A stretch of 23,589 nt of DNA. Origin: Rhizobium favelukesii. Its GTDB lineage: Bacteria; Pseudomonadota; Alphaproteobacteria; Rhizobiales; Rhizobiaceae. Below, one piece after another: positions 1,355-19,664 of the stretch (its first letter is position 1; each line of letters opens with the position of its first letter). The position numbers were made by a program, and so were the translations under genes. The DNA lies in contig NZ_CBYB010000054.1 in the NCBI RefSeq assembly GCF_000577275.2, positions 1 through 23,589 of the forward strand. Direction: 5' to 3'. The notes beneath the pieces are model-generated. The model was not told where the DNA came from. It searched no databases and was given only the letters and a program-made list of their open reading frames with translations.

Positions 1355-2083
1355 CTAAGGCGGGAACGCATGCACTGCCAAATTCTCAGGAGCGACAGGC
1401 CGCGCCGTTACGATCGATCCGATGAAACCACCCTTTGTTGGTAAGTCGTACAGGCGCCAGCAGTGGCTTGCCTGATTGTTTCGAACCCACAGACGCGCAC
1501 CATTGGGGCCAGTCCGTTCAGAGAGTGGAACCACGACCTGCGACAGGGGGTGGGTAAGACCAAGTCCCAGAGCTTTTACTGCGGCTTCTTTACGAACCCA
1601 AAGGCGCAATAGTAGTTCAGGAGCATTCTTCATCGTGCGAAGCCGTCGCCATTCCGCTGGCGACCAAATGGTCTCAAGCCAGCTCCATTCAACGACTTGG
1701 TCGAGGCGTTCGACGTCGATGCCGAGCAAAGGGTGGTGAGAGACAGCGACAAGTGACAGATCGCCGCTCCGGCTCATCGAAAAGAACGGCCCGCCGAGAA
1801 CGTATGGGCGACGCCATTGGCTGTACGCAAATTTCACATCCCAGGGCTCAATCATCAACCAACCTGCCAAGATCCGGCGTAGGGCCACGTGCGCCGCTGC
1901 AAATCTTCGCGCGTCGTGTCGATTCTTCAAACCATGGTATTTTTCCTGCTCTTCGTGATTCAGCCAGGCAAGGCAGTCCCGCCACTGGTCGGGCGCCACG
2001 TTCAGATCAATCTGCCAAATCTTCACCAATTCATTTGAGACCCTTCTGTTTCCGTTGTGATGATTCAACTTTGTCCCCGACAA
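1355..2083 (-). CDS. Sfp-type 4'-phosphopantetheinyl transferase
   Basis: This enzyme transfers phosphopantetheine from coenzyme A to the serine of carrier-protein domains, here presumably the two PCPs of the NRPS upstream. Numbered from the first codon of this call, the motifs are an N-terminal RFAAAHVALRRIL block (60-72), the metal-binding GIDVE (D123, E125), and RLWVRKEAAVKALGLGL with W162 and the KE pair 165-166. These are the Sfp-family signatures, and the length (about 220-242 aa) fits. The usual SHS motif reads SRS (R105), an unusual change at a CoA-contacting position. The start is unclear. The longest frame opens with TTG at 2083, close after the stop of the exporter gene; TTG at 2029 or GTG at 2026, behind an AAGGG, would also leave the enzyme complete. 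It is the last gene of the NRPS-exporter operon. Confidence 0.85.
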   Translation of the reverse strand: MSGTKLNHHNGNRRVSNELVKIWQIDLNVAPDQWRDCLAWLNHEEQEKYHGLKNRHDARRFAAAHVALRRILAGWLMIEPWDVKFAYSQWRRPYVLGGPFFSMSRSGDLSLVAVSHHPLLGIDVERLDQVVEWSWLETIWSPAEWRRLRTMKNAPELLLRLWVRKEAAVKALGLGLTHPLSQVVVPLSERTGPNGARLWVRNNQASHCWRLYDLPTKGGFIGSIVTARPVAPENLAVHAFPP

Positions 2084-2097
2084 GTAGCATTGCCCCC

Positions 2098-3453
2098 TTA
2101 AACGCGAAGCGACCGTTCATCTCTGCTCAAGCGCCGCCACTCTCGATAGAGGACGATCATGGCGATCAGACAAGCAGCAGCCTCACTGAGAACGGTACTA
2201 ATGATGAGACCGTTGACGCCCAGCCAATGCGGCAACACGAGCAGAAGTGGTATCAGGAATAGGCCATGGCGCGTAATTGCGAGCAGCGATGCCCGTGTCC
2301 CTTCGCCCTTGGCCTGAAGCAGCGCAATAGTGACTGCCATTGGGGGAAAGCAAACAAAGGCGGTGAGGAATGCAGCAATTGCGCGTTCCGCAACCGCAAT
2401 AGCTGAGGACTCGCTAACAAACCAGGCCGCCAAAGCATGCGATTGGGCGATGCCTATCAGGGCACACATCGATGAGAACACCAAGCAGAGCGATAAAATT
2501 GCGGTCAATGCCTGCCTCACTCTGTCGCCCCTCCCCGCACCAATGTTGTAGCCAATCGCAGCTTGGGCACCGATGCATAGACCACTGATTGGTAGAGCCA
2601 CTATGAGAAGCAGCCGCGTTGCAACACCCACCCCGGCCAAAATATCGTCGCCAAATGTGCTAGCGATTGAATTGAGTAGCCATATGGCAGCGATGCTAGT
2701 CACACTCGCGAGCACCGCCGGACTTCCTATCGTCAGAATGACACCTGCACGCTCCAATGAACCGGTTTTTGAATGTCCGCCTAGCGTCACCACGCCACGC
2801 GCGGTCGCGAAATGCCACACGTAAAGGGCGGCCGCGGCTGTCTGCGCAATTAGTGTTGCGAGACCAGCTCCTTCGATCCCCAGATCCAATCCGAAGATCA
2901 GCGCGGGATCGAGCAATGCGTTGAGGGCAAATGCAACCATCTGCGTGACCATGCTGAACAACGTGTTCCCCTCGGCCCTCACGATAAAGCCGCAGATCAT
3001 GTTGAATACAAGCAGCACCTGAGCAACCAGGAGCGGGATCAGGTATTCGATCGCGTAGGGCAGCGTGTTGTTGCTAGCGCCAAACCATGTCAGGAGGACG
3101 CTGATGCTGGTTGCGATACTACCAGAAGCCAATATGGCAATGCCCACGCCCAAGACAATTGCTGTCAATGCAAATGCTCCCGCCGATGAATAGTCGGGCC
3201 GACCGAGGCTGCGCGCCACGGTTGATGCTGCCCCAGTCCCCACCGCTTGCCCGACAAGCGTCAGGATCATGGTGATTGGGTATGTAATCGCAAGCGCAGC
3301 TACCGCCTGTGCCCCAAGACGTCGAACGAAGAAAGCATTCAGAAGCTGGTAGGCCGCACAGACGCAAAGCCCCACAATGGTTGGCCCGGCAAGTCTAAGA
3401 ACAAGTGGCACCATGGCATCCTTCTCGATGCGTTCTAACCGGACCGATTTCAT
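2098..3453 (-). CDS. MATE-family multidrug/metabolite exporter
   Basis: This is a 451-residue integral membrane protein with about twelve hydrophobic segments in two similar halves, as in MATE (NorM/MepA-like) cation-coupled antiporters. Typical features are the early PLVLRLAGPTIVGL helix, the QLLNAFFVRRLG loop, GQAVGTGAASTVARSLG in the first half, and the repeat-like GLCIGAQAAIGYNIGAGR in the second half. The ATG at 3453 is preferred over an upstream ATG at 3510 because it has a good AGGAG site 6 nt upstream and the upstream start would overlap the NRPS. It begins 38 nt after the NRPS stop and ends just before the PPTase. From position in the operon it most likely exports the NRPS product across the inner membrane. 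That role is inferred, as MATE substrates cannot be read from sequence. Confidence 0.88.
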   Translation of the reverse strand: MKSVRLERIEKDAMVPLVLRLAGPTIVGLCVCAAYQLLNAFFVRRLGAQAVAALAITYPITMILTLVGQAVGTGAASTVARSLGRPDYSSAGAFALTAIVLGVGIAILASGSIATSISVLLTWFGASNNTLPYAIEYLIPLLVAQVLLVFNMICGFIVRAEGNTLFSMVTQMVAFALNALLDPALIFGLDLGIEGAGLATLIAQTAAAALYVWHFATARGVVTLGGHSKTGSLERAGVILTIGSPAVLASVTSIAAIWLLNSIASTFGDDILAGVGVATRLLLIVALPISGLCIGAQAAIGYNIGAGRGDRVRQALTAILSLCLVFSSMCALIGIAQSHALAAWFVSESSAIAVAERAIAAFLTAFVCFPPMAVTIALLQAKGEGTRASLLAITRHGLFLIPLLLVLPHWLGVNGLIISTVLSEAAACLIAMIVLYREWRRLSRDERSLRV

Positions 3454-3491
3454 CTTAGCTCCTGCTTGATCCAATACTAGGGTCCAATAAA

Positions 3492-6400
3492 TCACGTTTG
3501 TATATTGCAAATCTCTCGAATGACTTCCGTCAGGTTATTCTGCAAATTAGTCGCAATTGACGTGGCCAATGATCCATCAATGCGGGAATAGTTATGCTGT
3601 TGCATTATGCGCAGGCAGCTATTCATTTCGTCGATTGAGTAATCAAGCCAATGGTGTTGATTAAAACTCACGTATTCGCCACACCATAACGGCGCCTCTT
3701 GTTGCCCCAAAAAATGGCGACCACGGATGGCCGCTAGAGGAGCACGGAAATTGATCAGAACACGCGGAGTTGGCAATCGCGCCGCGCGTTCCACCACTCT
3801 CTCGTCAGGATGAAACGCTTGGAGAGCACGCAGGCCGAGGCCAAGGGCGGGTATCCCACGTCGTTGGGCGGCAACGGAGCGCAATTGCGCCATCGCTGGT
3901 TCAGTGCCATCGATCACCAGTGGCATCGGCAAGAGTTCACAGCAGATACCAAGGTTGTTTGATAGATCGACATCGCCCAAGACAGGGGTGCGCAGGGCCG
4001 CAATGTTGTCCACGTAAAGTCCAAGCACTGGCCGATCGCCACCCAATGTCCGTAAAAAGGCCAAAAGAATAAGATCCAGCCCATCTATCCCAGCACGATC
4101 GGAAAATCCCAACAGTGCAGCCGTTTCTACTTGAGGGATGCTGAGAAAACGCGTCGCCTGGGATTCACACAACCACAAGAACTCATCGTTGTCCACTTCG
4201 CCGGCCCGCAACAACGCCTGCATACGACGCGCGCCGACAGGATCGGATGGCGTTGGATCTCCTCCAGATCGCGCCGCCGCTAGAGCCAGTGGCGAACCGG
4301 GGGGCATTAATGCTGCCCACGGTCTGGTTTCCCAGTACTCGAGCTCTTCCTCGGCGCGATCTATCGTATGATTGCGAAGTAGGTTAAGCCATTTGGCTAT
4401 GCCCGCGTGTCCCGTGAGGGCTGTTGGCCTGACCTCTAGGCCAGCCGCCGCAGTTCTATAGAGTCGTTCCAATTCTCCAATTAACAGGCGAAAACCGAAA
4501 GCGTCTGTAAGGAAGTGATGTACGACAATGAATAGCCAACCCCGCTGTGTCTGCGGTTGTCCGCCCTCGAATAGCAACACCTTGAGGAGGGGGGTGCGAC
4601 CGTCGAATTTGAAAGCATACTGCGCATCTTCTGTTTTTTCTGACACGATCCGCTCCCACGTTTCCGGCAAATCAGCGGGGAGTGTGATCCGCTCTAACGA
4701 TAGCGGGTCGTCGGCCGGGAGCGTGCGCACCGGCATGCCGTCTGAGCGAACGAGGCGGGTTCGAAGTATCGGATGCTCATCACCCAGCCGGACAACGGCT
4801 TGCGATAAGAGCGTTCCATCAAGCTCTCCTGCGTTGAACTTCCACAGGCCGTACAAATTGAAGTGCTCACCGTAGCCCATCTGCTGGCTGAAGAAACGCA
4901 TGGTGGGCGAAAATGGGGGGGCCACGTTCTCAGATTTGACGCGATCCAATGTAGTCTCATTGGGCAGAGCATCATCGTGTGCGTCAATGAGACTCGCCAG
5001 ATCGGCTAGTCGGGGGTGATTGTAGAGTTCGCCGACGGTGAAGCGCAAGCCGCGAAGGCTGGCGTCAGATACGCATCGCACACTTAGGATCGAAGTTCCC
5101 CCAAGAGCGAAGAACTCGTCCTCGGCTGAAACCACATCGCAACCCAGCAGACGCTCCCAAATCTCCGCGAGGGCTGCCTCGGTTGCCGTCCGCGGCCTCC
5201 TTCCTTTGCCTTTGCCGGAGGACATCGCAGTTGGCAATGGTAAGGCGCGACGGTCGAGTTTGCCACCTGGATTGCGAGGTAGTTCATCAATGCGCATAAT
5301 GCGTGCTGGCACCATGTATGTTGGAAGTATTTCCCGAATGAATGCCAGAAGGTCGGATTCGCCGGGGAAATCGGCAGTGCCGACCACATAGCCCACGAGG
5401 ACACCACCCCGATCCGGCACGGCATGCAACGCGACCCCGGCATCACTTACGGCGGGGTGCGTGCGGAGCGCATGCGCGACGTCGTCGAGTTCGACACGGT
5501 AACCATTCATCTTGACTTGGTCATCGGCGCGACCATGAAGCTCTAGCGTCCCATCCTCCCGGAATCTGGCAAGATCACCGGTCCGGTAGAGCAACTGGCC
5601 ACCTTTCGTCATATCGAACAGAGCTGTCGATTGCTCAATGTTATCGAGGTATCCAAGACTCAGGCACGCGCCCGTAACGCACAACTCACCCAAGGCGCCA
5701 CGCGGCATAAGTTGCAGCTTCCTGCCTCGCACGCTCAATTGCACATTTGCAAGCGGCCGACCTATAGGAACGCTACGTGCATCAAGGGGAAATGACTGAT
5801 CCACTTGGTACCAGGCGGCATTGGAGCTGCACTCGGTCGATCCATAGAAATTGAAAAGGGTTGTGGCTGGAAACGCGAGCGTCCAGCGCTTGGCGAGGTC
5901 GGGCGGCAGTGCCTGCGTGCTGCTAACGACCAGCCGAAGCGCGCTTGCCGACGGTCCGCCGGTCGCGCGCGCCATGATCAATCCATCTAGAATGGGTGGG
6001 GCGGCGAGGAGGTGACTGATCTTGTGGTTTTCAAGGACGGACAACAGCCGTTCTGGGACGACAAGCTCCTCTCGTGACAGCAAATAAGCTGGAACCCCCT
6101 GCAGCAACGGACCAAAAATTTCCCAGGTGCTTGCGACAAGCGTTGCGGACTTCTGGACCACTGCAACGTCACCGGCAGCGAACGGCAATTCTGACCACAT
6201 CCAGTGCAAACGGTTCAGGCAAGCCGACGTCGGGACGCGCACCCCTCTCGGTTCCCCGGTCGTTCCTGACGTGAAGACGATGTGCAGGATATCATGAGGC
6301 AAGACCGGAAGGGGCAACTCGCCTATCACAGCGGTTCCCGAGAGGGAGTCAAATGAAACCACCTGGCATGGCAAGCCTTCGTAGCATGCCCAGGAAGCAT

Positions 6401-9400
6401 AAACTTCGTTATCAGTCAGCATGACCTTCGGTGATGTTGCCCGTAAGATGCGAACGGCACGAGCTTGCGGCAAGTCGGGCCCTAAGCAGACATATGCGGC
6501 GTGTATCTTCACACAAGCAAGGATCGCCACCAGCGTTGCAATCCCTCGATCTGTCGCGATCGCTATTCGATCACCTTCGTGAGCACCCAGGCCAGCTAAC
6601 CCGTTGGCGACACGATCGACACGGTCGTTCAGTTCAGCGTAGGAAATTCGGCCTTCGTCCCAGAAAAAGGCAATGTGTTCTGGTGTACGTTGCACCTGGG
6701 CCTCGAACAGCTCACGTAAGGTTGCCTTGCAACCAAAATCGCGGCTGGTGTCGTTGAAAGACCCAAGAAATCGCAGTTCATTCTCGCTTAATAAGTCGAG
6801 AGAACGGAGCGGTGCATCGGGCGCTGCGACACATTGCTTCAACGTGTGTTCCAAATTGCGGAGGATTCGCTCGGCTTGAGGTGCCTCGAAGATCTCCTTG
6901 CAATATGTGAGTTGAAGATAGATGCCGTCCCCTTCCTCCTGCGCGTAGAGTGTCAGATCGTACTTCGCGTAGCCCAGCTCCAGTTCACGAACCGTGATGG
7001 TCAGTCCGCCGTCTACGTGCACTTCCTCCGGTTGTTCCGAGTACATGTTGAACATGACCTGAAAAACCGGCGAAATGTTGCTGCGTCGTGCAATGTCAAG
7101 GCTCTCCAGCATTTGACTGAACGGATAGTCGGCATGTGAAATGGCGCCCGATACGGTTTCCTGTACGACCTTTACCAACCCTGCGAAGGTTTCCGCCTCG
7201 GCGACTCTCAGCCGCAGCGGCAGCATGTTGAGGAAGAAGCCAAGGAGCTGCTCAGTGCCGGGGCGCTGCCTAATTACGTGGCGCGCGCCCACTACGACCT
7301 CGTCCTGTCCGGCATGTTGCCCCAGCACGATCGCAAACCCTGCCAGAAGCGTCGCGAATAGTGTTGACCGGTTGTCGGCCGCCACCCGACGAAGCGCGGC
7401 CGTCAGCCCTGCATCCAATCCCAGCCCTTGGGCCTGGCTGGCATATGTGAGGTGTCGGGGGCGGTCGTGATCGCTCGGCAGCTGGAGGAGCGGCAATTCT
7501 CCGCTTAACATCTGCTGCCAGTATGCCCGCTGAACATTGTAGCGTTCAGGGGTGAGATTTCTTGCTTCCCACAGAGCGTAATCGCCGAGGCCAATTTCGG
7601 GCCTCGCTGGCAAAGCTGCAGCGCGGCCCACCGTATGACCCTCGTAGAGGAGTCGCAGATCGCGCGCCAACACCGAAAGGGACCACGCGTCCATGATGAT
7701 CTCATGGGTAGTTAGGTAGAGCTCGTGCCGATCCTCGCTCCTACGAACGAGGGTGGTCCTGAGGAGTGGACCAGTCGACAAATCGAACGGTTGCGCGCTG
7801 TGTTGCCCCTGAATTGCCGCGACATGCTCGGCTTGAGCCGTTGAAGGGAACGGCGAGAGATCTTGGTATTCTAGCCGAGCTAACGGCGCGTCGAAGGTCA
7901 TCAGGGGCTCGCCATCTTTCTCCAGGAATCTCACTCGCAGCGTATCAAAACGGTCGAGCAAACCAGCCCAGGCCGCCTCGAATGCATTACGGTCTAGGGG
8001 ACCCTGAAGATTCACGACCGTCCGAAGGGTGTAATTTCGTGCCTGTGGGTCGAGCTTCCAGAGGAACCATAGGTGAGTTTGAAGAGCTGTAGGCGGCACC
8101 ACTTTCGTCGCCGCCGCAGGAATTCGGACAATGGGAGGCAACTGCGTCTCGTCGCTCTCCTCGATCTTCCGCGCCAACTCCCGGACCGTTGCACAATGAA
8201 GTTGGCCCGGTTGTATCTGGCGACCAAAAAGATGGTGAACCCGATTGGCGAGCAACATCATTCTCAACGAATCGCCGCCCAAATCGATGAAGGCGTCGTC
8301 GAGGCCGACAGGAGCCACACACAGGATCTGCTCCCAAAGATTCGCAAGCCGTCGTTCGATCTCTGATCGTGGCGATACGAAGGCAACATCGGACAGCGGG
8401 CGCATTCCATCTGGAATCGGCAGGCGGCCGTAGTCGAGCTTACCGTTAGAGTTGAGCGGGAGCGTGGGCACTTCAAAAATTTGATCCGGGATCATGTACG
8501 GCGCCAAGTATCGGCCCAGATGCTCTTGCAGATGTCTCAAAGTGCAGTGATCGCGCAAAACGACGAAGGCAATAAGGCGGGGCGGCACAAGATCTGCATC
8601 GAACGCTGACGCACTTTCATCGCAACTTTCCCACCCAAGCTTTTCACGGGCGGTGAGCTTGGTCCGTCGATGTTGGCTTCGATGCAGACCTAAAGCGCTT
8701 CCCGTCACGCCATGGTGGCTGTTGAGAACAGTTTCAATTTCTGCCAATTCTACACGGTAGCCCCGTACCTTGACCTGGCGATCCGCTCGGCCAAGGCACT
8801 CAAGCAAACCCTCGGGCCGCATGCGAGCCAGATCACCGGTCCGATACAAACGGCTGTGGCTCGGCGTGTCGTCGAAGGGATTCGTGACGAAAACCGCCGC
8901 AGTACGCTCTGGGTCATTGATGTAACCCTGAGCAACGCCAGCACCGCTTACGCATAGCTCCCCAATTTCTCCTCTCGATGCAAGTTTCACAGGATCACTG
9001 TCCGGCGTTACAAGGTAAACACGAAGCCCGGGAATAGGTCGCCCGATCGGTACGTAGGTTTCATCAGCGGCTGGCGGCTGTGTTACCAAGTAGTGCGTGA
9101 CGCCGTCGCCGCACTCCGTTGGGCCATAATGATTGAGGATGGGAACTTTCGGATAGTGCGTTAGCCATTTGCGACATAGATCGGGTGGCAGCGGTTCGCC
9201 AACAGTTGAGATGCAGCGCAGGTTCTCAAACTGAGGTGTGCTCTCGCCTTCTGTGGCGACGAGGTAGGCACGCAAGAGTGATGGCACGAACTGAATTACC
9301 GCAATCTTTCGATGGTGCAGAGTTTTCGACAACTGGAGAGGGTCCGCAATGACAGCCGATGGTAAAATGTCGACGCCTCCACCGACCAGCAGAGCTGCCA

Positions 9401-10043
9401 GGAATTGCCAGAGTGATATGTCGAAGCAGTGGGAAGCGGTTTGAGCAACACGGTCGGTGGCACAAAGGTTGAGATCCGCTATTTTGGCATTGAGGTGGTT
9501 GGCCAACGCGGCATGTGTGAGCACCGCTCCCTTCGGTCCGCCGGTGGTTCCGGACGTGAAAATGATATAGGCAGCATCACCCGGCTGCACATCCAAGGAT
9601 GCTGTGGGCGCGGCGGGCATTGACGTGGCTAGGCCGGCATTGACGACCGAAGCGGCTCCCGCAATTGCCTGTGCAAGCTCCAAATCGTCTGGAGCAGTCA
9701 CCAGAATGGCGCATTCGCTACGTTCAACCATGCGCTGCAACCGATCTGTCGGGTACGCCGTATCCAGGGGCACGTAAACGGCGCGCAGCCGAAATATCGC
9801 TAGCATACAAGCAAGCAGCACTGGGCCACGCGGCATCAACACCGCAACTGCCAGGCCCGGGGTGCAGCCATGAGCGCCAATAGCGGCGGCGAGTCGACCG
9901 GTGAGATCGTCCAGTTCGCCATACGTCAGGTAATCTTCGCCCGAATACACGGCGGGACGGTCAGGATATTCTTTTGCCGACTGGGCAAAGCGGGAAACTA
10001 CTGATTCAAATACTTTTGTAGACGCGGGCTGTAAGCTGTCCAT
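3492..10043 (-). CDS. Two-module nonribosomal peptide synthetase (A-PCP-C-A-PCP-C)
   Basis: This is a cytoplasmic assembly-line enzyme of 2183 residues. A1 (about 18-540) has FTSGTTGGPKG, NHYGPTE, YRTGDLAR and NGKLD (K535). PCP1 has LGGDSL (S592). C1 spans about 645-1085. A2 (about 1108-1603) has FTSGTTGEPRG, NFYGSTE, YRTGDLAR and GGKLD (K1595). PCP2 has LGGTSI (S1651). A terminal C domain (about 1708-2180) has HHFLTDA (H1842, H1843, D1847). There is no thioesterase or reductase, so release probably uses the last C domain. Pocket residues read by eye are D-I-W-Q-S-V-H-D-G-K for A1 and V-A-W-A-V-S-F-S-N-K for A2; I do not predict substrates. The C1 active-site motif is HEIIMDA rather than HHxxxDG. 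The frame is open 161 codons further upstream, but that part shows no family similarity. The ATG at 10043 places the protein start just before A1, with only a weak GGAAA site. NifA/sigma-54 signals lie upstream. Confidence 0.92.
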   Translation of the reverse strand: MDSLQPASTKVFESVVSRFAQSAKEYPDRPAVYSGEDYLTYGELDDLTGRLAAAIGAHGCTPGLAVAVLMPRGPVLLACMLAIFRLRAVYVPLDTAYPTDRLQRMVERSECAILVTAPDDLELAQAIAGAASVVNAGLATSMPAAPTASLDVQPGDAAYIIFTSGTTGGPKGAVLTHAALANHLNAKIADLNLCATDRVAQTASHCFDISLWQFLAALLVGGGVDILPSAVIADPLQLSKTLHHRKIAVIQFVPSLLRAYLVATEGESTPQFENLRCISTVGEPLPPDLCRKWLTHYPKVPILNHYGPTECGDGVTHYLVTQPPAADETYVPIGRPIPGLRVYLVTPDSDPVKLASRGEIGELCVSGAGVAQGYINDPERTAAVFVTNPFDDTPSHSRLYRTGDLARMRPEGLLECLGRADRQVKVRGYRVELAEIETVLNSHHGVTGSALGLHRSQHRRTKLTAREKLGWESCDESASAFDADLVPPRLIAFVVLRDHCTLRHLQEHLGRYLAPYMIPDQIFEVPTLPLNSNGKLDYGRLPIPDGMRPLSDVAFVSPRSEIERRLANLWEQILCVAPVGLDDAFIDLGGDSLRMMLLANRVHHLFGRQIQPGQLHCATVRELARKIEESDETQLPPIVRIPAAATKVVPPTALQTHLWFLWKLDPQARNYTLRTVVNLQGPLDRNAFEAAWAGLLDRFDTLRVRFLEKDGEPLMTFDAPLARLEYQDLSPFPSTAQAEHVAAIQGQHSAQPFDLSTGPLLRTTLVRRSEDRHELYLTTHEIIMDAWSLSVLARDLRLLYEGHTVGRAAALPARPEIGLGDYALWEARNLTPERYNVQRAYWQQMLSGELPLLQLPSDHDRPRHLTYASQAQGLGLDAGLTAALRRVAADNRSTLFATLLAGFAIVLGQHAGQDEVVVGARHVIRQRPGTEQLLGFFLNMLPLRLRVAEAETFAGLVKVVQETVSGAISHADYPFSQMLESLDIARRSNISPVFQVMFNMYSEQPEEVHVDGGLTITVRELELGYAKYDLTLYAQEEGDGIYLQLTYCKEIFEAPQAERILRNLEHTLKQCVAAPDAPLRSLDLLSENELRFLGSFNDTSRDFGCKATLRELFEAQVQRTPEHIAFFWDEGRISYAELNDRVDRVANGLAGLGAHEGDRIAIATDRGIATLVAILACVKIHAAYVCLGPDLPQARAVRILRATSPKVMLTDNEVYASWACYEGLPCQVVSFDSLSGTAVIGELPLPVLPHDILHIVFTSGTTGEPRGVRVPTSACLNRLHWMWSELPFAAGDVAVVQKSATLVASTWEIFGPLLQGVPAYLLSREELVVPERLLSVLENHKISHLLAAPPILDGLIMARATGGPSASALRLVVSSTQALPPDLAKRWTLAFPATTLFNFYGSTECSSNAAWYQVDQSFPLDARSVPIGRPLANVQLSVRGRKLQLMPRGALGELCVTGACLSLGYLDNIEQSTALFDMTKGGQLLYRTGDLARFREDGTLELHGRADDQVKMNGYRVELDDVAHALRTHPAVSDAGVALHAVPDRGGVLVGYVVGTADFPGESDLLAFIREILPTYMVPARIMRIDELPRNPGGKLDRRALPLPTAMSSGKGKGRRPRTATEAALAEIWERLLGCDVVSAEDEFFALGGTSILSVRCVSDASLRGLRFTVGELYNHPRLADLASLIDAHDDALPNETTLDRVKSENVAPPFSPTMRFFSQQMGYGEHFNLYGLWKFNAGELDGTLLSQAVVRLGDEHPILRTRLVRSDGMPVRTLPADDPLSLERITLPADLPETWERIVSEKTEDAQYAFKFDGRTPLLKVLLFEGGQPQTQRGWLFIVVHHFLTDAFGFRLLIGELERLYRTAAAGLEVRPTALTGHAGIAKWLNLLRNHTIDRAEEELEYWETRPWAALMPPGSPLALAAARSGGDPTPSDPVGARRMQALLRAGEVDNDEFLWLCESQATRFLSIPQVETAALLGFSDRAGIDGLDLILLAFLRTLGGDRPVLGLYVDNIAALRTPVLGDVDLSNNLGICCELLPMPLVIDGTEPAMAQLRSVAAQRRGIPALGLGLRALQAFHPDERVVERAARLPTPRVLINFRAPLAAIRGRHFLGQQEAPLWCGEYVSFNQHHWLDYSIDEMNSCLRIMQQHNYSRIDGSLATSIATNLQNNLTEVIREICNIQT

Positions 10044-10087
10044 AGGAGTGCGTTTCCAAACTGCATTATCGAAGAAGATTTCCAGTG

Positions 10088-10121
10088 GTGGCCTGGCGTT
10101 CCAACGCTTGCTCGAGGCCAC
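10088..10121 (-). promoter_or_regulatory. Stem-loop in the NRPS mRNA leader
   Basis: A 7-bp perfect inverted repeat (GTGGCCT at 10088-10094, AGGCCAC at 10115-10121) encloses a smaller one (GCGT/ACGC with a 4-base loop, 10096-10107). It lies 45-78 nt upstream of the NRPS start and inside the roughly 280-nt leader predicted from the -24/-12 element. It is a structure seen directly. A role in mRNA stability or translation is only a possibility. Confidence 0.45.
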
Positions 10122-10330
10122 GCCAAAGCAGGCCGAAGGGCAGCACGGCCGGGCGCTCGGATGAACAGAATGCCCTACAATTGAGTACGCCGTTGAATGG
10201 ATCGTAGACGCGCCACTCACTCGATTGCGACGCTCAAGATGAGTCTTGCGGAACCGTACATCTTCTGACCTCCTCTTATGTTTGGCCTTGCGACAAAATT
10301 CTCTCAATCCATAAGGCTTTGCGGAGGACG

Positions 10331-10348
10331 TTGCATATACTGCGCCAA
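10331..10348 (-). promoter_or_regulatory. Sigma-54 (-24/-12) promoter of the NRPS operon
   Basis: On the minus strand the sequence reads TTGGCGCAGTATATGCAA. The GG and GC dinucleotides are separated by exactly ten bases, as required for sigma-54, and the flanks TTGGC and TGCA match the consensus (TTGGCACG-N4-TTGCA). Transcription would start near 10320, giving a leader of about 280 nt before the NRPS start. Two NifA-type activator sites lie 45-77 bp further upstream. Confidence 0.7.
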
Positions 10349-10392
10349 GCGAAAACTGCTTTATATTCAATAACATGACTTTAAGAGCACCA

Positions 10393-10408
10393 TGTCGCAT
10401 GTTCGACA
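10393..10408. promoter_or_regulatory. NifA upstream activator site 1 (TGT-N10-ACA)
   Basis: The sequence TGTcgcatgttcgACA fits the full TGT-N4-T-N5-ACA NifA consensus. Its centre is about 80 bp upstream of the start expected from the -24/-12 element at 10331-10348, within the usual distance for NifA activation by DNA looping. Confidence 0.65.
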
Positions 10409-10409
10409 T

Positions 10410-10425
10410 TGTCCAACTTCCGACA
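10410..10425. promoter_or_regulatory. NifA upstream activator site 2 (TGT-N10-ACA)
   Basis: A second site, TGTccaacttccgACA, begins 17 bp after the first begins, with a single base between them. It has the TGT and ACA arms and ten-base spacing but C instead of T at the inner consensus position. Two such adjacent sites at this distance from a -24/-12 element are unlikely to be chance. Confidence 0.6.
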
Positions 10426-10866
10426 AGATTGTGGACGGGTTTGCCTGCCCTTAAGTCCCGCTTGCCAGCGGAACTCTGTTCGCCAACGGCGAGCGAGTGC
10501 GTGCGGATTGGCAACGAGGAGTGCAATTTGACGCGTTCGCCGCAACTTTCTCCTAAACCTCGACCGCAGGGGTAGCTGCGGGATTAAAAATTTGTCATCG
10601 TTCAGTCCGCGACCTCGAAACAGGCGTTCTTTTCGATGGATGCGGCCTACGGTCCAGCGCTAGTGCTGCGGGCCGTTCCCAGGCCCTGCAAGTCAATATC
10701 CCATCATAATCCCGGGAATGGCCAGGCTCACCTGCTCGCAGAACCGTCGCTCTTGGTGTCGACATAATGAAGTTGCGATTGTACTTCCGCCGTGGGAAGC
10801 GGCATGCCAGTTCAAATGATTGATGCCGCCCCGCGATGTTGGGGTACCGCCTTCGACGCAAGAAGC
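10426..10866. other. Intergenic region between the nif operon end and the NRPS activator sites
   Basis: I see no convincing gene here. A minus-strand open frame (10595-10861, 88 codons) is rich in Arg and Pro, shows no recognisable motif and has no clear ribosome site. A perfect 6-bp inverted repeat CCGCAG/CTGCGG with a 6-base loop lies at 10564-10581. It could mark the end of nif operon transcripts but lacks a T-run on the minus strand, so it is not a standard terminator. Confidence 0.5.
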
Positions 10867-11076: not shown

Positions 11077-11094
11077 TACATTCTCCTTCTTCGC

Positions 11095-11412
11095 TCATTC
11101 GGCAATCGTGCCGCTCGCGATGTGAGTTTGGCAGTTTTTTGGACAGACGCGGGCGCAGGCCCCGCATCCGATACAGCGGCCGGGAAAATCCACGACCATG
11201 ATCACTCGATTGAGCTCGCCATCGAAGTCGTCTTCCTCGCCATTGCAGACACCGAGAATTTCACCTGCATCGTCGATACCGTGAGGATGCATGACCTCCC
11301 GTGAGCAGACCTTGAAGCAGCGGCCGCAGCCAATGCACATCAGTTGATCGATGGAAGTTAGATACTCCGGCATCCATCCGGACCCGTCGCGGGTCACGCA
11401 TGAGCTTGTCAT
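11095..11412 (-). CDS. fdxB: Nif-associated 2[4Fe-4S] ferredoxin (ferredoxin III type)
   Basis: This is a 105-residue ferredoxin with two cysteine clusters: C26, C29, C32, C36 (CIGCGRCFKVC) and C80, C83, C86, C90 (CIGCGACARVCP), separated by a long acidic insert typical of the nif-specific ferredoxin III family. A further cysteine, C94, follows. It is an electron carrier probably serving nitrogenase or cofactor assembly. Its ATG overlaps the stop of the preceding DUF683 gene (ATGA), with GGAGA upstream, so translation is coupled. Position after nifX and the two NifX-associated genes is the normal rhizobial arrangement. Confidence 0.92.
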   Translation of the reverse strand: MTSSCVTRDGSGWMPEYLTSIDQLMCIGCGRCFKVCSREVMHPHGIDDAGEILGVCNGEEDDFDGELNRVIMVVDFPGRCIGCGACARVCPKNCQTHIASGTIAE

Positions 11413-11639
11413 GTTGGATTCTCCAATGCAGCGAGTTCTCTTTTTGCAGCGTCCAACTCAACAAAGGCCTGAAAAGTTTTCTTCGCGACTGCCATGATTT
11501 CGGACCAATTGACTGGAAGGTCTTCGGCGAGATCGTGCAATTCCATCTTCGCATTCCCAGCACGCGACTGCAGCTTCCGCACCCTTTTCTTCAATTCTTG
11601 AAGTTCTGACATGGCCTCTTTCTCGAACACCGTTTCCAT
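11409..11639 (-). CDS. Nif-associated DUF683 (CCE_0567-family) small protein
   Basis: This is a 76-residue, mostly helical protein containing MSELQELKKRVRKLQSRAG, NAKMELHDLAEDLPVNW and AKKTFQAFVELDAAK. These are diagnostic for the DUF683 family found beside nifX and fdxB; a structurally studied member binds metal as a helical dimer, but the role in nitrogen fixation is not settled. The start METVFEKE is chosen because its ATG shares a base with the upstream stop codon (TGATG). An internal ATG at 11612 would give the more usual length of about 67 residues but has its purine-rich site too close. The 4-nt overlap with fdxB shows one transcription unit. Confidence 0.88.
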   Translation of the reverse strand: METVFEKEAMSELQELKKRVRKLQSRAGNAKMELHDLAEDLPVNWSEIMAVAKKTFQAFVELDAAKRELAALENPT

Positions 11640-12127
11640 CAAGCCCGCGCCACGTCCGGATAAGCTTCCACGACTGCGACCGCGTCGCTGACTAGCTTCG
11701 TACCGGTCTTGGCGCATTTACGAAGCGTATTGAAGCCGAACCGGTGAACGTTGCGTAGGGTCGTCGATAGTAGGACCAACCGCCTGGTCGTTAGCAGCAC
11801 TCGCCCGAAGCCCTCCTGGTTGATCTCCATCGTCCGCGACACGAATAAGTCTGAGCGCTCCTCGACCGCGAGGCTGACGGCGGCGTAAAAGGTATTAAGC
11901 CTCCACAGGACCAGCGGATCGGGATCTCCGATGATCGGGATCGCTCGGCGCTGTTCATATGTCACGGTGAAGTTGGCCAGCAGTTCGGCGTCGCACTTGC
12001 CACTCCATAGTCCATAGGAATCTTCAGCTCGGATCAGCCGCACGAGGCATCTAATAAACGGGGCGCGGAAGATCTTGTCGTCATTGACGGTAGGAGTAAC
12101 CGCAGGATCAGATAACGTTGTCATCAT
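11639..12127 (-). CDS. NifX-associated nitrogen fixation protein (DUF269)
   Basis: This is a 162-residue soluble protein found almost only next to nifX. Typical text includes FIRCLVRLIRAEDSYGLW near the N-terminus, IPIIGDPDPLVLWRLNTFY in the middle, and a GFGRVLLTTRRLVLL block. The precise biochemical role is unknown; family members are linked to nitrogenase cofactor maturation by genomic context. Two adjacent ATGs (12127 and 12124) compete. A GAGGAC site within the end of nifX serves either, and only one base separates the nifX stop from the first ATG, so translation is probably coupled. Confidence 0.9.
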   Translation of the reverse strand: MMTTLSDPAVTPTVNDDKIFRAPFIRCLVRLIRAEDSYGLWSGKCDAELLANFTVTYEQRRAIPIIGDPDPLVLWRLNTFYAAVSLAVEERSDLFVSRTMEINQEGFGRVLLTTRRLVLLSTTLRNVHRFGFNTLRKCAKTGTKLVSDAVAVVEAYPDVARA

Positions 12128-12128
12128 T

Positions 12129-12626
12129 TCAGTCCTCGTCTTCGAAGCTGGCTTTCCGTCCGACGGCGCCGGCTTCCGCTAACACCTTGCGAAGCCAAGG
12201 TGGAGGAGCGTTCCTGAGCATTGTTTGAATGCGCGCCAGCACAGCGTCGATGGATTCAGGCTCCGGCACCTTGATTGGATGGATCTTTGCCGCAATAACC
12301 TTGGCTGCCGAAGGGCCGCCGATAGCCAGGCAGAATAAGAGCTGGCAGCCCTTTAACGCTGCCACTTTCGGAGCGATGCGGTCATCACCTTCGGCTCGAT
12401 GCGTTCCGCTCTCATCGGAAACGTCATCGAACACTACGGCTTCCACGAGACTCCACGCGTCGGGCGTCACGTCATAGATGGCAAATCGTTTAGCCGACCC
12501 GAAATGCGCGTTCAGTCCTCTCATGTCTTGAGTGGCGATTGCTACTCGTAATGTGCCGACCTGCCTTTCGGGCCGCTGTTCCTGGAACTCGTCATTGACG
12601 AGCGAGAGACGACGAGTTGAGGTCAT
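12129..12626 (-). CDS. nifX: Nitrogenase cofactor carrier NifX
   Basis: This is a 165-residue protein of the NifX/NifB-C-terminal/NafY family, which binds NifB-cofactor and the VK cluster and carries FeMo-co intermediates to and from NifEN. Characteristic stretches are LRVAIATQDMRGLNAHFGSAKRF near the start, then the YDV strand, KGCQLLFCLAIGGPSAAKVIAA, and a C-terminal helix. The ATG at 12626 is chosen over an upstream one (12710) because it gives the family's normal length and has a GGGA site. It overlaps the end of nifN by 35 nt. A short Arg/Glu-rich N-terminal extension precedes the conserved domain. Confidence 0.93.
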   Translation of the reverse strand: MTSTRRLSLVNDEFQEQRPERQVGTLRVAIATQDMRGLNAHFGSAKRFAIYDVTPDAWSLVEAVVFDDVSDESGTHRAEGDDRIAPKVAALKGCQLLFCLAIGGPSAAKVIAAKIHPIKVPEPESIDAVLARIQTMLRNAPPPWLRKVLAEAGAVGRKASFEDED

Positions 12627-13974
12627 TTTGCAATTCCCGGCTACAGATTGGATTAGGTGCGCCTGATGTCGGCGGGTGTTGGTTAGCCTGAAAAATGTTG
12701 GCAACCTCATAGATCATGTCGCGCGTCCCCTGATAAAGGATTGTAAGCTTGTGCTGACTGCCTAGGCGGTCGAAGATCGGAAAGCCAATACGCATCAGCG
12801 GAATGTCGAGACGCTTTGCAGCTTGCCGGCCGTGTGAGTGAGTGACGAGAAGATCTGCCCCCGGGGCGAGGCGTTCCAGGTCACTGAGATCGCCGACCTG
12901 GACAGTTTCCGCTGGCACTACTTGCAGTATTTTTGAAGTCCCGGTCGTGGTAACGGCGGCTGTAATTTCCGCACCCAAGCCGGTGAAAAAACCTGCAAAC
13001 TGATAAAGTTGATCCGGCTCGGAGGCGATTGCGATCTTCTTGCCAGCCAGATGGAAATGTCCATCGAGCATGGCGTCCTGCAAATGCATACGGCTGCGAC
13101 GGACACTGGCCGGCGCTTGTTCACGCGACATGGCTGTAAGCAGCCAAATAAACCGGTCCGCGTTCTTTAGGCCTGTGAGAGACTCGAACATCACGTACGG
13201 GACGCCGGTTAGCCGCTGCAACGCTTCGGCTGGTCGCCGCATCTGCTCGCCGATGGCAATGCACTGCATCGCCCCACCGAGATCGCGAATGTCCTCCACT
13301 TTCGTGCCACCATACGTTGTCGGAATCCAGTGGTCGGGGACGGTGCCATCAAGAGCGCCAGACACATCGGGCAGGATTACCGGTTTGAGCCCGAAGCTCT
13401 GGGCCGTCTCGCGCAGATACTCTATGTCGGCAACTGTTATGTTCGAGCCGGGCAGTATCGCGACCTTCCTCGGATCGCGATACTGCGTCCGAGACCGAGT
13501 GATTCCCTCGATCATAGCGGTAACGGCTTTGGACCACCCCTCTTCTATCGCACCGTCGAAGTCCGGCGTCCTGGCGAGCACCACTTCAGTACCCGTGAGT
13601 TCTGTCGCCCGCTTGCGTTTGATGGTGGCTAGGTCCCCAGCGATATCTTCGTCGCGTGTCTCGACCAGTGCCGTCGTGCAAATCCCGATCAGCCGGGGCT
13701 TTGCGCGGGCTTTGAGATTAAGGATGGCCTCTTCGAGGTGATCTGCGCACCCGACGACAATTGCAATTTCATCCATCGCCGTCGTCTGCAACGGGATCGG
13801 TTCCTTAAAATGTCTAACGAGCAGCACGAGGGCAAAGCTGGTGCACCCCTGGCTGCCGTGGAACACGGGCATTGCGCCGTTGATGCCAAGAAAGGCGAAG
13901 GCAGCGCCCAGCGGCTGAGACGATTTCAGAGGATTAATCGCCGCCGATTTAGTTTGGGGAAGGATGCGGACCAT
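12592..13974 (-). CDS. nifN: Nitrogenase cofactor scaffold subunit NifN
   Basis: This is the 460-residue beta subunit of the NifEN scaffold, on which the FeMo-cofactor precursor is matured. The N-terminus NPLKSSQPLGAAFAFLGI and FHGSQGCTSFALVLL match the NifK-like fold, with the cluster-ligand cysteine of the GSQGC motif. The middle contains LIGICTTALVETRDEDIAGD, and the C-terminal domain is nitrogenase-like. The ATG at 13974 is preferred over an upstream ATG (14028): a TGAGGT ribosome site sits at the right distance and is formed partly by the nifE stop codon itself, leaving a 10-nt gap. This implies coupled, balanced synthesis of NifE and NifN. Confidence 0.95.
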   Translation of the reverse strand: MVRILPQTKSAAINPLKSSQPLGAAFAFLGINGAMPVFHGSQGCTSFALVLLVRHFKEPIPLQTTAMDEIAIVVGCADHLEEAILNLKARAKPRLIGICTTALVETRDEDIAGDLATIKRKRATELTGTEVVLARTPDFDGAIEEGWSKAVTAMIEGITRSRTQYRDPRKVAILPGSNITVADIEYLRETAQSFGLKPVILPDVSGALDGTVPDHWIPTTYGGTKVEDIRDLGGAMQCIAIGEQMRRPAEALQRLTGVPYVMFESLTGLKNADRFIWLLTAMSREQAPASVRRSRMHLQDAMLDGHFHLAGKKIAIASEPDQLYQFAGFFTGLGAEITAAVTTTGTSKILQVVPAETVQVGDLSDLERLAPGADLLVTHSHGRQAAKRLDIPLMRIGFPIFDRLGSQHKLTILYQGTRDMIYEVANIFQANQHPPTSGAPNPICSRELQNDLNSSSLARQ

Positions 13975-13984
13975 AAATATTACC

Positions 13985-15451
13985 TCAACAGTCATCACCG
14001 GCGGTTTCGCCGGCAAAATTTGATGCACTTGCTGTTCTTTTTTCCAACTTCTCCTCCGTGATCATGGCCTGCTCCCACGGTGCCGGCTCGCGCACCTGCG
14101 CCCAGATCGGATTGTGGATTGCGAGGTCGATCTGGCGTGCGAGCTGCACCATGCCGTCGTAACCGGCGTAAGCGTGATGTCGCTCCTGATTGATGTCGAG
14201 CCAAGGCATCTTCGCCTTCAGCGCGATAAACTGCGTGCGACCGCCCGACAGCATGATGTCAGCCTTTTGCTCGGACAACATCGAGTAAAGCTCGCGCGGT
14301 GCAATCGACTCGTACAGGTGGTTCTCGTCCTTTAGAATCTTCTTGATTCGCTCCTTGTCATCGGCCGTCGATTTCTTGACGGATGTGCCGACGACCTCCA
14401 TGCCGATTTCCATTAACGATTGGACGACCGACCAGGATTTCACGCCCCCAGTGTTGAGAAGCACGCGCTTGCCTTCGAGCCGGGGCCGGTAGACTTCCAG
14501 CCTCTTCCACGCTCTTTCCTCTTCTTCCACGACGATCGCTTCCGTGCGATTGAGGAGCTCGGCATCGGCGCCTTTCATTACGAGCAATTCAGCGATCCGC
14601 CGGAGCGCTTCAGAGGTGGCGGAGATGCCGTAGAAGGAGCCCTCGAAGAACGGGATGTCCCAGCGCTCCTCCATCTTGCGAGCGAGATTGATCAGAGCGG
14701 TCGAGCACACCATCATAGCTGCACGTGCGCGGTGCGCGGAAGCAACCTGCAGATAGCGCGCGTCGCCTGGAATGCAGGCGCGGACACGGATGCCAAGCCT
14801 GTCCAAGAGGGGCTTTACCAGCCAGAATTCGCCGGAGAGGTTGAATTCGCCAATGATATTGATGTCGTGAGGCCCCGGGTCATCCGGCTCTACCGTACCT
14901 ATGACATAGTCAAGTAACGCCTCCCCGGCGAGTTTGTTACCGAGGTTCTTCGAACCCGCGAACCCCGGCGCATTTACCGGCACCACCGGTATGGCGAACT
15001 TTTCCGCCGCGCGCTTACAAACCGCTTCGATGTCGTCACCGATCATCGCCGTAACGCAGGTTGCATAGACGAAGATTGCAGCCGGCGTATAGCCTTCCTT
15101 GATCTCGCGGATCGCTTTGAAGAGCTTCCGCTCGCTGTGGCCCATCACTATATCGAGTTCGGTAAGATCGGTGGTGAAACTGGTGCGCCACAGCGTGGGA
15201 CCAGACGATGCAGCCCCGCGATTGTCCCAGGAATTGCCTTCGCAGGCGAGCGGCGCGTGTATCAGATGCGCGACGTCAGTGATCGGCTGCAGCACAACCT
15301 TGGCGCCGTCGAAAGCACAACCGCCAGCTGTCGCTCCAGGAGTCAACGGCTTCGAGCAACCCTTTTTGCGCGTCTTGGGGCTCTTGTTGCGATTTCCCTC
15401 GCAGGCAGGCTCGTCGAAGACATCTTGGATTTTGACGGTGAGCGAGGACAT
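13985..15451 (-). CDS. nifE: Nitrogenase cofactor scaffold subunit NifE
   Basis: This is the 488-residue alpha subunit of NifEN. The N-terminal region has a cysteine-bearing basic segment (PACEGNRNKSPKTRKKGCSK) followed by GGCAFDGAKVVLQPITD, then LIHAPLACEGNSWDNRG, matching the P-cluster-like cysteines of the nitrogenase alpha family. Later come [19 protein letters not shown] and the C-terminal SGGRTQFIALK and WLDINQERHHAYAGYDG. It acts with NifN on a cofactor precursor delivered by NifB. It starts 54 nt after the nifK stop, and no separate promoter is evident in that gap, so read-through from nifH is likely. It has a normal length and no disruptions. Confidence 0.96.
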   Translation of the reverse strand: MSSLTVKIQDVFDEPACEGNRNKSPKTRKKGCSKPLTPGATAGGCAFDGAKVVLQPITDVAHLIHAPLACEGNSWDNRGAASSGPTLWRTSFTTDLTELDIVMGHSERKLFKAIREIKEGYTPAAIFVYATCVTAMIGDDIEAVCKRAAEKFAIPVVPVNAPGFAGSKNLGNKLAGEALLDYVIGTVEPDDPGPHDINIIGEFNLSGEFWLVKPLLDRLGIRVRACIPGDARYLQVASAHRARAAMMVCSTALINLARKMEERWDIPFFEGSFYGISATSEALRRIAELLVMKGADAELLNRTEAIVVEEEERAWKRLEVYRPRLEGKRVLLNTGGVKSWSVVQSLMEIGMEVVGTSVKKSTADDKERIKKILKDENHLYESIAPRELYSMLSEQKADIMLSGGRTQFIALKAKMPWLDINQERHHAYAGYDGMVQLARQIDLAIHNPIWAQVREPAPWEQAMITEEKLEKRTASASNFAGETAGDDC

Positions 15452-15505
15452 GCATTGGCCTTCAAGTTCGGTTGGGAGATGGCCGACCTAAGCCGGCCGC
15501 CGCTC

Positions 15506-17047
15506 TTAGCGAGTGAGGTCGTACGAATAATCCGTCACACCCGGCTGCATCGTCTCGCCATCGAGCTTGTCGAAGATCTTGTCGAGGATGGTCGTTAATA
15601 GACGTAATCCGCCTTGGTAGCCCATGATGGGAAAGCGGTGGTGGTGATGCCGGTCGAAGATCGGAAACGTCAGCCGAACCAGTGGCGTGCCAGTGTCGCG
15701 CTCAAGATACTTGCCATAGGAATTGCCGATCAGCAGATCCACCGGCTCGGTGAAAAGCAGTGAGCGCATTGCCCAGAGATCTTTGCCCGCCCACACCTGT
15801 GCATCCTTGCCGAAGGGCGAGGATGCGAACAGTTCCTTCATCTCGGCCTCCCAGGCAGAGGTGCCGTTTGTGGCGAGGCAGTGTGTTGGCTCGCCACCGG
15901 TCTCCATGATGAACCGCGCCATGGCGTAAACGAAGTCCGGATCGCCGTAGATCGCGTATTTTTTGCCATGTAGCCAGGACTGGCTGTCCGCCATCGCATC
16001 GACCAGTCGTCCGCGCTCCAGGCGGATTGCCTCAGGAATTTCCCTCCTAGAAATCTCCGATATCTTCATCAGCAATTCGTCGGTCGCCGTGACGCCGAGC
16101 GGATAGTGAAAGGAAGCCGTCGCTTGTCCGATCTCATTGCAATATTCCAGCGTCTTGCGCGTATTGTAGTGCTGCAGCGACAGTGTCGCCCCCGCGTTCA
16201 GCGCCGCTTTCACGTCCTCGATCTTGGTTCCTCCGTCGTACATGCGGAACTCACCGTCGGAAGGCGTATCGAATTGGTCGGAGGCGTCCTGGATGAACAC
16301 GTAGGTCACCCGCATCATATCGAGCAGGCGCTTTAATTCGCGATTATTACCAACGCAGAAGCCGTCGAAGCCCGGAATGATGTTGATGCAAGCAGCGACT
16401 TGCGTGCGCGCCGCGCCCTTCCAGAAATTCTCGAGCACGCCTTTTACCATGCTGTCATAGCCATCGACATGGCTACCGACGAAGGCGGGCGTGTGGGCGA
16501 AGGGCAGGTCGAAATCGCGCGGGACGGAGCCCTCGTTTTTTGCATTTTCAATAAAACTGCGCAGGTCATCACCGATGACCTCTGCCATACAGGTGGTCGA
16601 GACCGCGATCATCTTCGGGTCGTAGAGCTTATAGGTATTGGCGAGACCGTCGACCATATTCTTCAATCCGCCAAATACAGCCGCGTCTTCTGTCATGGAA
16701 GAAGAGACCGCAGATGACGGTTCCTTGAAATGACGCGACAGGTGCGATCGGTAGTAGGCGACGCAGCCCTGACTGCCGTGGACAAACGACATCGTCCGCT
16801 CAAATCCAGCCGCTGCGAAGACCGCGCCGAGCGGCTGGCAGGCCTTGGCAGGGTTCACGACAAGCGCTTCGCGGGCGAGATTTTTTTCGCGATATTCCCA
16901 GGTCTTGGTGAACTCGCGTTGACCCGAAACAACCTCGTCCGGGTGTGGACATTCGAAATTCAGCTTCTTCTCGGCAAGCATTTTCCTGTATTCCGGCTCG
17001 CAGAACAGAGGAGCGTGATCGAGAACTTTTTCGGCCGATTGCGGCAT
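15506..17047 (-). CDS. nifK: Nitrogenase MoFe protein beta subunit NifK
   Basis: This is the 513-residue beta subunit of dinitrogenase, which with NifD holds the P-cluster. P-cluster cysteines are at C70 (AKACQPLG), C95 (GSQGCVAY) and C153 ([13 protein letters not shown]), identical in position to the reference Azotobacter numbering. The C-terminal half has [22 protein letters not shown]. The start at 17047 ([11 protein letters not shown]) is chosen over an in-frame ATG at 17089 because it gives the family N-terminus and has an AAGGT site upstream. The gene follows nifD by 99 nt. It appears intact. Confidence 0.97.
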
Positions 17048-17146
17048 AGTGGTTACCTTTTTAAATCTGGCCGCGACTTGCGGCGACACAGAAACCTTCG
17101 AGATTTTTCAGGTCTCCCGCGACCCCTGCCGCGAGAAACCGGGCTC

Positions 17147-18649
17147 TCATTCGGCTGCAACTGCCGTTGCAGAGGCCGCCTTTTTTTTCCAGGGCGCGTC
17201 GTAGAGGCCCCAGACCGGATTGTTGATTGCGAGATCCATGTCGCGAGCGAAGATGGCGAAGCCGTCATAGCCGTGATAGGGGCCGGAATAATCCCAGGAA
17301 TGCATCTGACGGAACGGAATGCCCATCTTCTGTACCGGGTATTTCTCCTTGATGCCTGAGCCGACGAGGTCGGGACGAATCCCCTCGATGAACTTCTCCA
17401 GTTCGTAACCGGTCACATCGTCGTAGATCAGTGTGCCCTTTTTGACATAGTGGCCGGTGCGCTGATAGTCGTCGCCGTGGCCGAATTCGTAGCCCGTGCC
17501 GACGATCTCCATGCCGAGGTCCTCATAGGCGGTGATGACGTGACGGGGGCGCAATCCGCCGACGTAAAGCATCACCCTTTTGCCATCTAGGCGCGGCTGG
17601 TACTTCTCGGTCACAGCCTGGACGAACGGCTGGTACTTGGCGATGACCTTCTCAGTCCGATCCTCGATCTCCGGTCCGAAATGCTTTGCTATGCTGCGCA
17701 AAGAGGCCTCGATCTGGGACGGACCAAAAAAATTATACTCCATCCAGGGGATGCCGTATTTTTCCTCCATGTGCCGAGAGATGTAATTCATCGACCGATA
17801 GCAGTGAATGAGGTTGAGCTTGGCCTTCGGTGCGCGCTCGACTTCGGCGAGCGTGGCATCCCCGGACCAATTGCCGACCACACGCAGCCCGACCTCCTCG
17901 AGCAGAATGCGGGAGGCCCATGCATCGCCGCCGATGTTGTAGTCACCTATCACATTAACGTCGAAGGGACCGGACTCGAATTCCACCTTCTTCTTGTCGA
18001 AGACCCAATCGCGGATCGCGTCGTTGGCGATGTGATGGCCGAGCGATTGCGACACACCACGGAAGCCCTCGCAGCGCACCGGCACAATGGTTTTCTTGTG
18101 CTCCTTTGCTTTCTTTCGCGATACAGCCTCGATGTCGTCGCCAATCAGGCCAATTGGGCATTCGGACTGCAAGGTGACGCCGTTATTAAGCGGAAACAGT
18201 TCCTCGATCTCATCGATGACCTTCTCCAGCTTTTTGTCGCCACCGAAAACGATGTCCTTCTCCTGGAAGTCGGAGGTGAACTGCATTGTCACGAAAGTGT
18301 CGACGCCTGTCAGGCCGACGTAGTAGTTGCGGCGCTGTGACCAGGAATATTGGCCGCAGCCGACCGGCCCATGCGAGATGTGAACCATATCCTTAATCGG
18401 TCCCCAAACGACGCCTTTTGAACCGGCATAGGCGCAGCCGCGGATCGTCATCACGCCCGGAACGGACTTAATGTTCGACTTTACGTCGCATTCGGAAACC
18501 GCGTTCGCGCCCTCGCTGGATCCCTCTCCGCCCGTTGCGACACCGAGGTGCTTACTGCGGCGCTTCGCCGCTTTGTCGGGATACTGCGACAGCACGTCCT
18601 CGATAAGCTTCGCGTGGAAATCACTGTTATTCTCGTAGTCGAGGCTCAT
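17147..18649 (-). CDS. nifD: Nitrogenase MoFe protein alpha subunit NifD
   Basis: This is the 500-residue alpha subunit of dinitrogenase, the site of N2 reduction at FeMo-co. P-cluster ligands C72 (RGCAYAG), C98 ([10 protein letters not shown]) and C164 ([12 protein letters not shown]) are visible. The FeMo-co ligands are C283 ([10 protein letters not shown]) and H450 ([16 protein letters not shown]), with the pocket residues Q201 and H205 in SQSLGHH. All are shifted by about 8-10 relative to Azotobacter. The ATG has a strong AAGGGGG site upstream. The C-terminal tail ([13 protein letters not shown]) is Ala/Lys rich, as in other rhizobia. All catalytic residues are present, so a functional molybdenum nitrogenase is expected. 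Confidence 0.98.
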
Positions 18650-18713
18650 TGGGCCTGCCCCCTTTTTAAAGGTTCGGATGAAGCCTCATCAACGAGGCAT
18701 TGGTGCGTGGAAT

Positions 18714-18738
18714 GGCGCGCTGCGTAAAGCTGCGCGCC
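18714..18738 (-). promoter_or_regulatory. Stem-loop in the nifH-nifD spacer
   Basis: A 7-bp perfect GC inverted repeat (GGCGCGC/GCGCGCC, 11-base loop) lies 20 nt downstream of the nifH stop. A smaller one (GCCTC/GAGGC, 18683-18698) sits between it and nifD. There is no T-run, so it is not a simple terminator. In other diazotrophs hairpins in this spacer help make nifH mRNA more abundant than nifDK; the same role is inferred here. Confidence 0.55.
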
Positions 18739-18758
18739 GCCCGTGTCGGCAGCGCCTG

Positions 18759-19664
<906 letters not shown>

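Follow-up and report, generated by a model that had tools for sequence, protein, structure and literature searches.

The locus examined here, an operon of NRPS, MATE and PPTase genes lying downstream of nif genes in Rhizobium favelukesii, raises the question of whether the operon is transcribed from a NifA/sigma-54-type promoter of its own. On the minus strand of the window, which is the whole analysed stretch of 23,589 nucleotides on contig C54, the order is nifH, D, K, E, N, X, DUF269, Rop-like, fdxB, promoter, NRPS, MATE and PPTase. An earlier note on this DNA had placed two TGT-N10-ACA sites and a minus-strand GG-N10-GC element upstream of the operon, and direct reading of the sequence found all three at the positions it gave (Table 1).

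The TGT-N10-ACA motif is described as the NifA site in extracts of PMC4999443. The -24/-12 box carries GG-N10-GC, matches 9 of the 12 informative positions of TGGCACG-N4-TTGCW and is separated from the proximal UAS (UAS1) by a 45-bp gap. When the C of the GC in the box was placed at -12, the transcription start was predicted at about 10321, and the UAS centres fell near -80 and -97, bearing out the distances proposed earlier. NifA UAS usually lie at about -80 to -150 from the start, and two sites were found in this range. The further claim that all elements face the NRPS-MATE-PPTase genes held for the box but not for the UAS; TGT-N10-ACA sites are palindromes without direction, so the direction is set by the -24/-12 box alone. 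A scan of 9950-11150 returned no sigma-70-like promoter.

Table 1. Coordinates of the predicted promoter elements and neighbouring genes in the window.
Feature	Position	Strand	Basis or remark
Distal NifA UAS (UAS2), TGT-N10-ACA, TGTCCAACTTCCGACA	10410..10425	. (palindrome; read on +)	centre ~-97
Proximal NifA UAS (UAS1), TGT-N10-ACA, TGTCGCATGTTCGACA	10393..10408	. (palindrome; read on +)	centre ~-80
Sigma-54 -24/-12 box, TTGGCGCAGTATATGC	10333..10348	-	GG-N10-GC, read from sequence
Predicted 5' untranslated leader, ~278 nt	10044..10321	-	inferred from -12 position
Dimodular NRPS, A-T-C-A-T-C, 2183 aa from ATG	3492..10043	-	domain and motif searches
MATE-family exporter	2098..3510	-	Pfam MatE
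4'-phosphopantetheinyl transferase (PPTase)	1355..2083	-	Pfam ACPS
Upstream nifHDKENX-DUF269-Rop-like-fdxB genes	11095..19652	-	same order annotated in pT136b

Adenylation, carrier and condensation domains each occur twice in the NRPS, their order being taken from motif positions, and the ATG start of the gene agrees with the annotated starts of orthologues. The carrier serine motif LGGxS reads LGGDS and LGGTS; the condensation motifs THEIIMDA and HHFLTDA keep the second His and the Asp of HHxxxDG and differ at other positions. Modules of the linear gramicidin synthetase LgrA (PDB 9be3, 6mfz) were the best solved-structure matches, covering residues 301-1688, and among the 60 of 137 matches listed no best stretch extended past residue 1737, which leaves the terminal condensation domain outside. 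Full-length relatives were found by protein search at 46% and 39% (P0004, P0020). A family scan with exact peptide patterns, one genome per species, gave 61 loci; L067 (Bdellovibrionales), which matched partially at 23%, does not enter any count. Adding the window and plasmid relatives L002-L006 to the scan loci brings the family to 66 loci, all with the NRPS cluster and 65 of them with the MATE cluster. A PPTase of the window type occurs in 7 loci, and another cluster, whose one scanned member is a PPTase, in 16. Pocket position 235 of the adenylation domains, set by motif and the usual numbering, is Asp in the first domain (FDISLW) but Val in the second (LVASTW). By motif, the first pocket is D-I-W-Q-S-V-H-D-G, nearly invariant among the listed rows of 62 NRPSs; in the second, the usual Asp is replaced by Val or Ile among the 50 of 62 NRPSs listed.

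The window NRPS is 100.0% identical to that of plasmid pT136b from Rhizobium sp. T136; the match falls into two pieces around an IS630 copy that lies inside the T136 gene, at its start (L002 9579-10639). In T1473 the NRPS reading frame is split (L003 9486-16036) and transposases lie between MATE and PPTase. Since the NRPS is broken in both strains, this species group may be able to do without its product, and the benefit of the operon there is uncertain. These lesions speak for a functional promoter ahead of a decaying operon that yields no useful product in this lineage. Such decay is nonetheless rather unlikely, because the window NRPS reads through 2183 aa without a break and has its carrier motifs, and the pocket residues are conserved across the family.

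Dependence on NifA could also arise mainly by read-through from the nifHDKENX-fdxB operon, with the local site adding little. That operon shares the strand and stops some 0.7 kb short of the UAS, and no terminator-like site was found in 9950-11150 by a scan that is blind to Rho-dependent ends. Read-through as the main route is nevertheless improbable, given that Rhizobium sp. 007, S. numidicum and S. garamanticum retain the local promoter while their gene tables, which are incomplete, list no nifHDKENX within 9 kb upstream (6 kb for L086); in S. garamanticum, nifB-nifZ-nifT ends about 6 kb upstream. Because it is kept where these tables list no upstream nifHDKENX, the promoter travels with the operon.

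UAS1 is identical in L002-L006 and L086, with S. numidicum, S. garamanticum and both plasmid copies of Rhizobium sp. 007 among them. At UAS2, TGT-N10-ACA is kept in L002, L003 and both Rhizobium sp. 007 copies, and reads AGT-N10-ACA in the two Sinorhizobium species just named. The GG-N10-GC box is kept in all seven close relatives read (L002-L007, L086), and that of S. psoraleae (L007), TTGGCACAGTACATGCA, is nearer to the consensus than the window box. No UAS was found within 140 bases before the S. psoraleae box, where the DNA has been replaced by an omptin-like gene, so named from its likeness to L071, that has its own tandem-UAS promoter 1.4 kb up. When the window promoter was compared with plasmids by blastn, matches were confined to its own clade (8 records). 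The leader between promoter and NRPS contains blocks conserved in relatives, among them AGAGGAGGTCAGAAGATG. Rfam gave no match anywhere in the window, leader included, and the leader fold was no better than that of shuffled sequences (z 0.82). Within 10041-10321, the block AGAGGAGGTCAGAAGATG presents an ATG with TAA directly after it in L004, L005, L006 and L086.

Taken singly, the motifs occur at background frequency in the window, with 4 TGT-N10-ACA sites against 3.20 expected and 6 RpoN-type boxes against 5.44 expected. Counts of single motifs are at chance level and therefore useless alone. The 7.57-Mb genome was scanned with the pattern UAS-N30-60-TGGCN8TGC, using the reversed pattern as control, and 18 matches were obtained compared to 4 for the control. 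The 18 comprise eight coherent promoters (the NRPS site included), eight copies of one repeat and two singletons; the last ten matches are all on contigs C59, C61 and C62, and the other seven coherent promoters are on contigs of at most 39,109 bases. Gaps in those seven are 42-46 bp, bracketing the gap at the NRPS promoter, and the spacers of the set share a T-rich end just before the box.

A scoring matrix was built from the other seven coherent promoters with the pattern-fixed bases excluded, and 200,000 random sequences served as background. The interior of UAS1 scored 12.8 bits, reached by none of the 200,000 random sequences; the score of UAS2 was reached by 0.94% and that of the RpoN-box interior by 3.0% of them. 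L004-L066 hold 490 matches to TGT-N10-ACA, read on both strands with every palindrome entering twice; four reached the UAS1 score, and three of these were, necessarily, the identical copies in L004-L006. UAS1 is thus a strong match to the set of its own genome, and UAS2 and the box are moderate ones. A non-functional arrangement that arose by chance or has decayed would fit the background frequency of each motif and the incomplete match of the box, and is very unlikely since it is contradicted by the pair statistics, the interior UAS match, the spacing and the conservation.

The other seven coherent promoters precede genes for an S46 peptidase, a formyltransferase-type NRPS/PKS, an omptin, IscA-like and NifS-like proteins, OmpW and an M16 peptidase; the one on C18 has no clear gene downstream. 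The omptin promoter has tandem UAS with one base between them, as at the NRPS promoter. UAS/box pairs with gaps longer than those of the coherent set belong to nifH and to a FixA-like gene (ETF domain). One gene of the genome scored above the curated cut-off for NifA (C46:11917-13527, 710.6 bits). Sigma-54 acting with an enhancer-binding protein other than NifA is barely credible: five other proteins of the genome match the NifA model centrally at 251-350 bits, below the cut-off, but the motif is the published NifA site and the UAS interior matches sites that this genome carries before its IscA/NifS-like genes and before others.

Two side observations concern this promoter set. The second NRPS/PKS is giant, starts with a formyltransferase domain and has a coherent-set promoter (L069, C6:26000-27952; L084 15625-31554); similar DNA occurs in 43 plasmid records, all from genera with rhizobia, and in 3 of them over at least 80% of the query. 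The set also precedes the S46 peptidase, omptin and M16 peptidase genes (L068, L071, L074), and, as speculation, these enzymes might act on host nodule peptides.

Promoters across the family were sought in the 800 bases before and 450 bases after each NRPS ORF start. A UAS/box pair was found in 23 of the 66 loci, compared to 1.32 expected from shuffling, and the control ORFs taken from these loci gave 34 of 436, some of them recognisably NifA-type genes such as nifH (Fisher p 2.6e-8, an optimistic value, as the loci are related and hence not independent). Curation removed L047 and L056, whose pairs have weak GGGC-type boxes, and added L002, L003 and L066, giving 24; L048, with one UAS mismatch, raises the tally to 25/66. 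In L002 and L003 the insertion or split had put the ORF start in the wrong place, so that the scan overlooked their pairs. The pairs of L029 and L037 lie 588 and 444 bp ahead of the ORF.

Four promoter types were distinguished: type a in the window clade, type b in six Bradyrhizobium (TGTTCGGGGCCAGACA-like, gaps 59-63), type c in nine or ten Ensifer/Sinorhizobium/Rhizobium (nifH-like, with TTGA at -12 in all but L061) and type d in three Mesorhizobium. Between types, blastn at 1e-3 detected no similarity except a 24-base stretch shared by L061 (type c) and two promoters of type d. In an NRPS tree without L003 and L066 the types fell in separate clades, that of type c also holding the pairless L032, L038 and L043. 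Type c resembles the nifH promoter in its core, and the UAS of L027 is identical to the window nifH UAS; BLAST of the flanks of the family's nifH-like promoters against window nifH upstream DNA gave no alignment except a weak one for L029. The window NRPS promoter, unlike that of nifH, has another UAS pair, the 45-bp gap and TGC at -12.

No convincing pair was found close by in 41 of the 66 loci, namely 35 of the 41 Bradyrhizobium loci together with L007, L008, L032, L038, L040 and L043. For most Bradyrhizobium loci a search to 3 kb upstream likewise found no pair close by; several loci in that search have one on the opposite strand, and L008 and L063, left out of the counts, have one 1.1-1.2 kb upstream. 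Leaders of the pairless Bradyrhizobium loci are conserved, but of another kind, and control of these loci may be different, more distant or not by NifA. In Bradyrhizobium loci such as L009, L013 and L047, a conserved leader of more than 400 bases precedes the NRPS with no UAS/RpoN pair. Many Bradyrhizobium loci also have, upstream on the other strand, an outer-membrane-like gene and what we take to be an S-adenosylmethionine-decarboxylase-like gene.

The hosts of the family were characterized by their NifA and NodA content. NifA above the cut-off was found for 49/50 and 10/10 loci, corresponding to 58 of 59 distinct family genomes, compared to 50 of 297 genomes in an order sample, and NodA was found in 49 of 50 loci (50 of 60 being covered). 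The lone miss for both proteins was a Clostridiaceae MAG. The NRPS-MATE family is thus found almost only in nodulating diazotrophs. In the MAG itself (L040 8610-16423) the MATE gene adjoins an NRPS related at 33%, whose first-pocket motifs are almost those of the family.

Comparison with characterized regulons was made from the literature. The NifA/RpoN regulon of M. loti R7A, as presented in the available text of PMC3538637, resembles the window in having UAS and -24/-12 elements before nif and accessory symbiotic genes. It differs in that the word 'peptide' is absent from the main text, so that no NRPS is named. In nodules, 18 of the 18 lacZ fusions to UAS/RpoN promoters listed in Table 4 of that paper were at or near background in a nifA2 mutant, and of the 9 listed fusions lacking such promoters, 7 dropped as well; for this reason, nifA dependence alone is no proof of a direct promoter. 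In B. diazoefficiens, the NRPS gene blr2108 is marked as a NifA and RpoN1/2 target in Table 2 of PMC6515984, and the same extract gives its protein as log2 6.5 up in microoxia and its transcript as 39-fold up in bacteroids and unchanged in free-living microoxia. It stands at -4.6 in a table of PMC4926349, the comparison behind the figure lying outside the extract. The B. diazoefficiens NRPS found by protein search (P0131) has 70% identity over 70% of the formyltransferase-type NRPS query. Judged via P0131, which may be blr2108, this gene is a functional precedent and probably not an orthologue of the window NRPS. No report of the NRPS-MATE family under NifA was found in the titles and abstract openings searched, and the main text of the R. 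favelukesii OR191 paper (PMC9048898) contains no NRPS terms.

Control by NifA and sigma-54, as proposed in the earlier note, is the best reading of these data because the genome-wide coherent set, the conservation in orthologues, the single nifA and the UAS/-24/-12 promoters of different sequence before homologues all support it. Counterpoints are the 9/12 box, the 41/66 pairless loci, the lack of a UAS in L007 and the leader of ~278 nt. On balance, the sequence evidence argues that the NRPS-MATE-PPTase operon very probably has its own NifA/sigma-54-type promoter. In the proposed mechanism, NifA would bind the two adjacent UAS and contact the sigma-54 RNA polymerase on the -24/-12 box; at low oxygen, chiefly in nodules, transcription would begin near 10321. 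The PPTase would arm the carrier domains, the two-module NRPS would join two monomers and the MATE protein would export the product. An NRPS compound is probably made inside nodules. More tentatively, and with somewhat less confidence than doubt, a family almost exclusive to nodule bacteria may have been put under NifA several times, with a different promoter each time, its conserved two-unit metabolite being made and exported by bacteroids as a signal or protectant.

NifA regulons are generally taken to serve the supply of nitrogenase. In this one genome, promoters of NifA type stand before a specialised-metabolite operon, before a second NRPS/PKS and before three peptidase genes. The prediction that follows is that bacteroids of many legume symbionts would make a NifA-dependent small molecule that has seemingly not been looked for so far.
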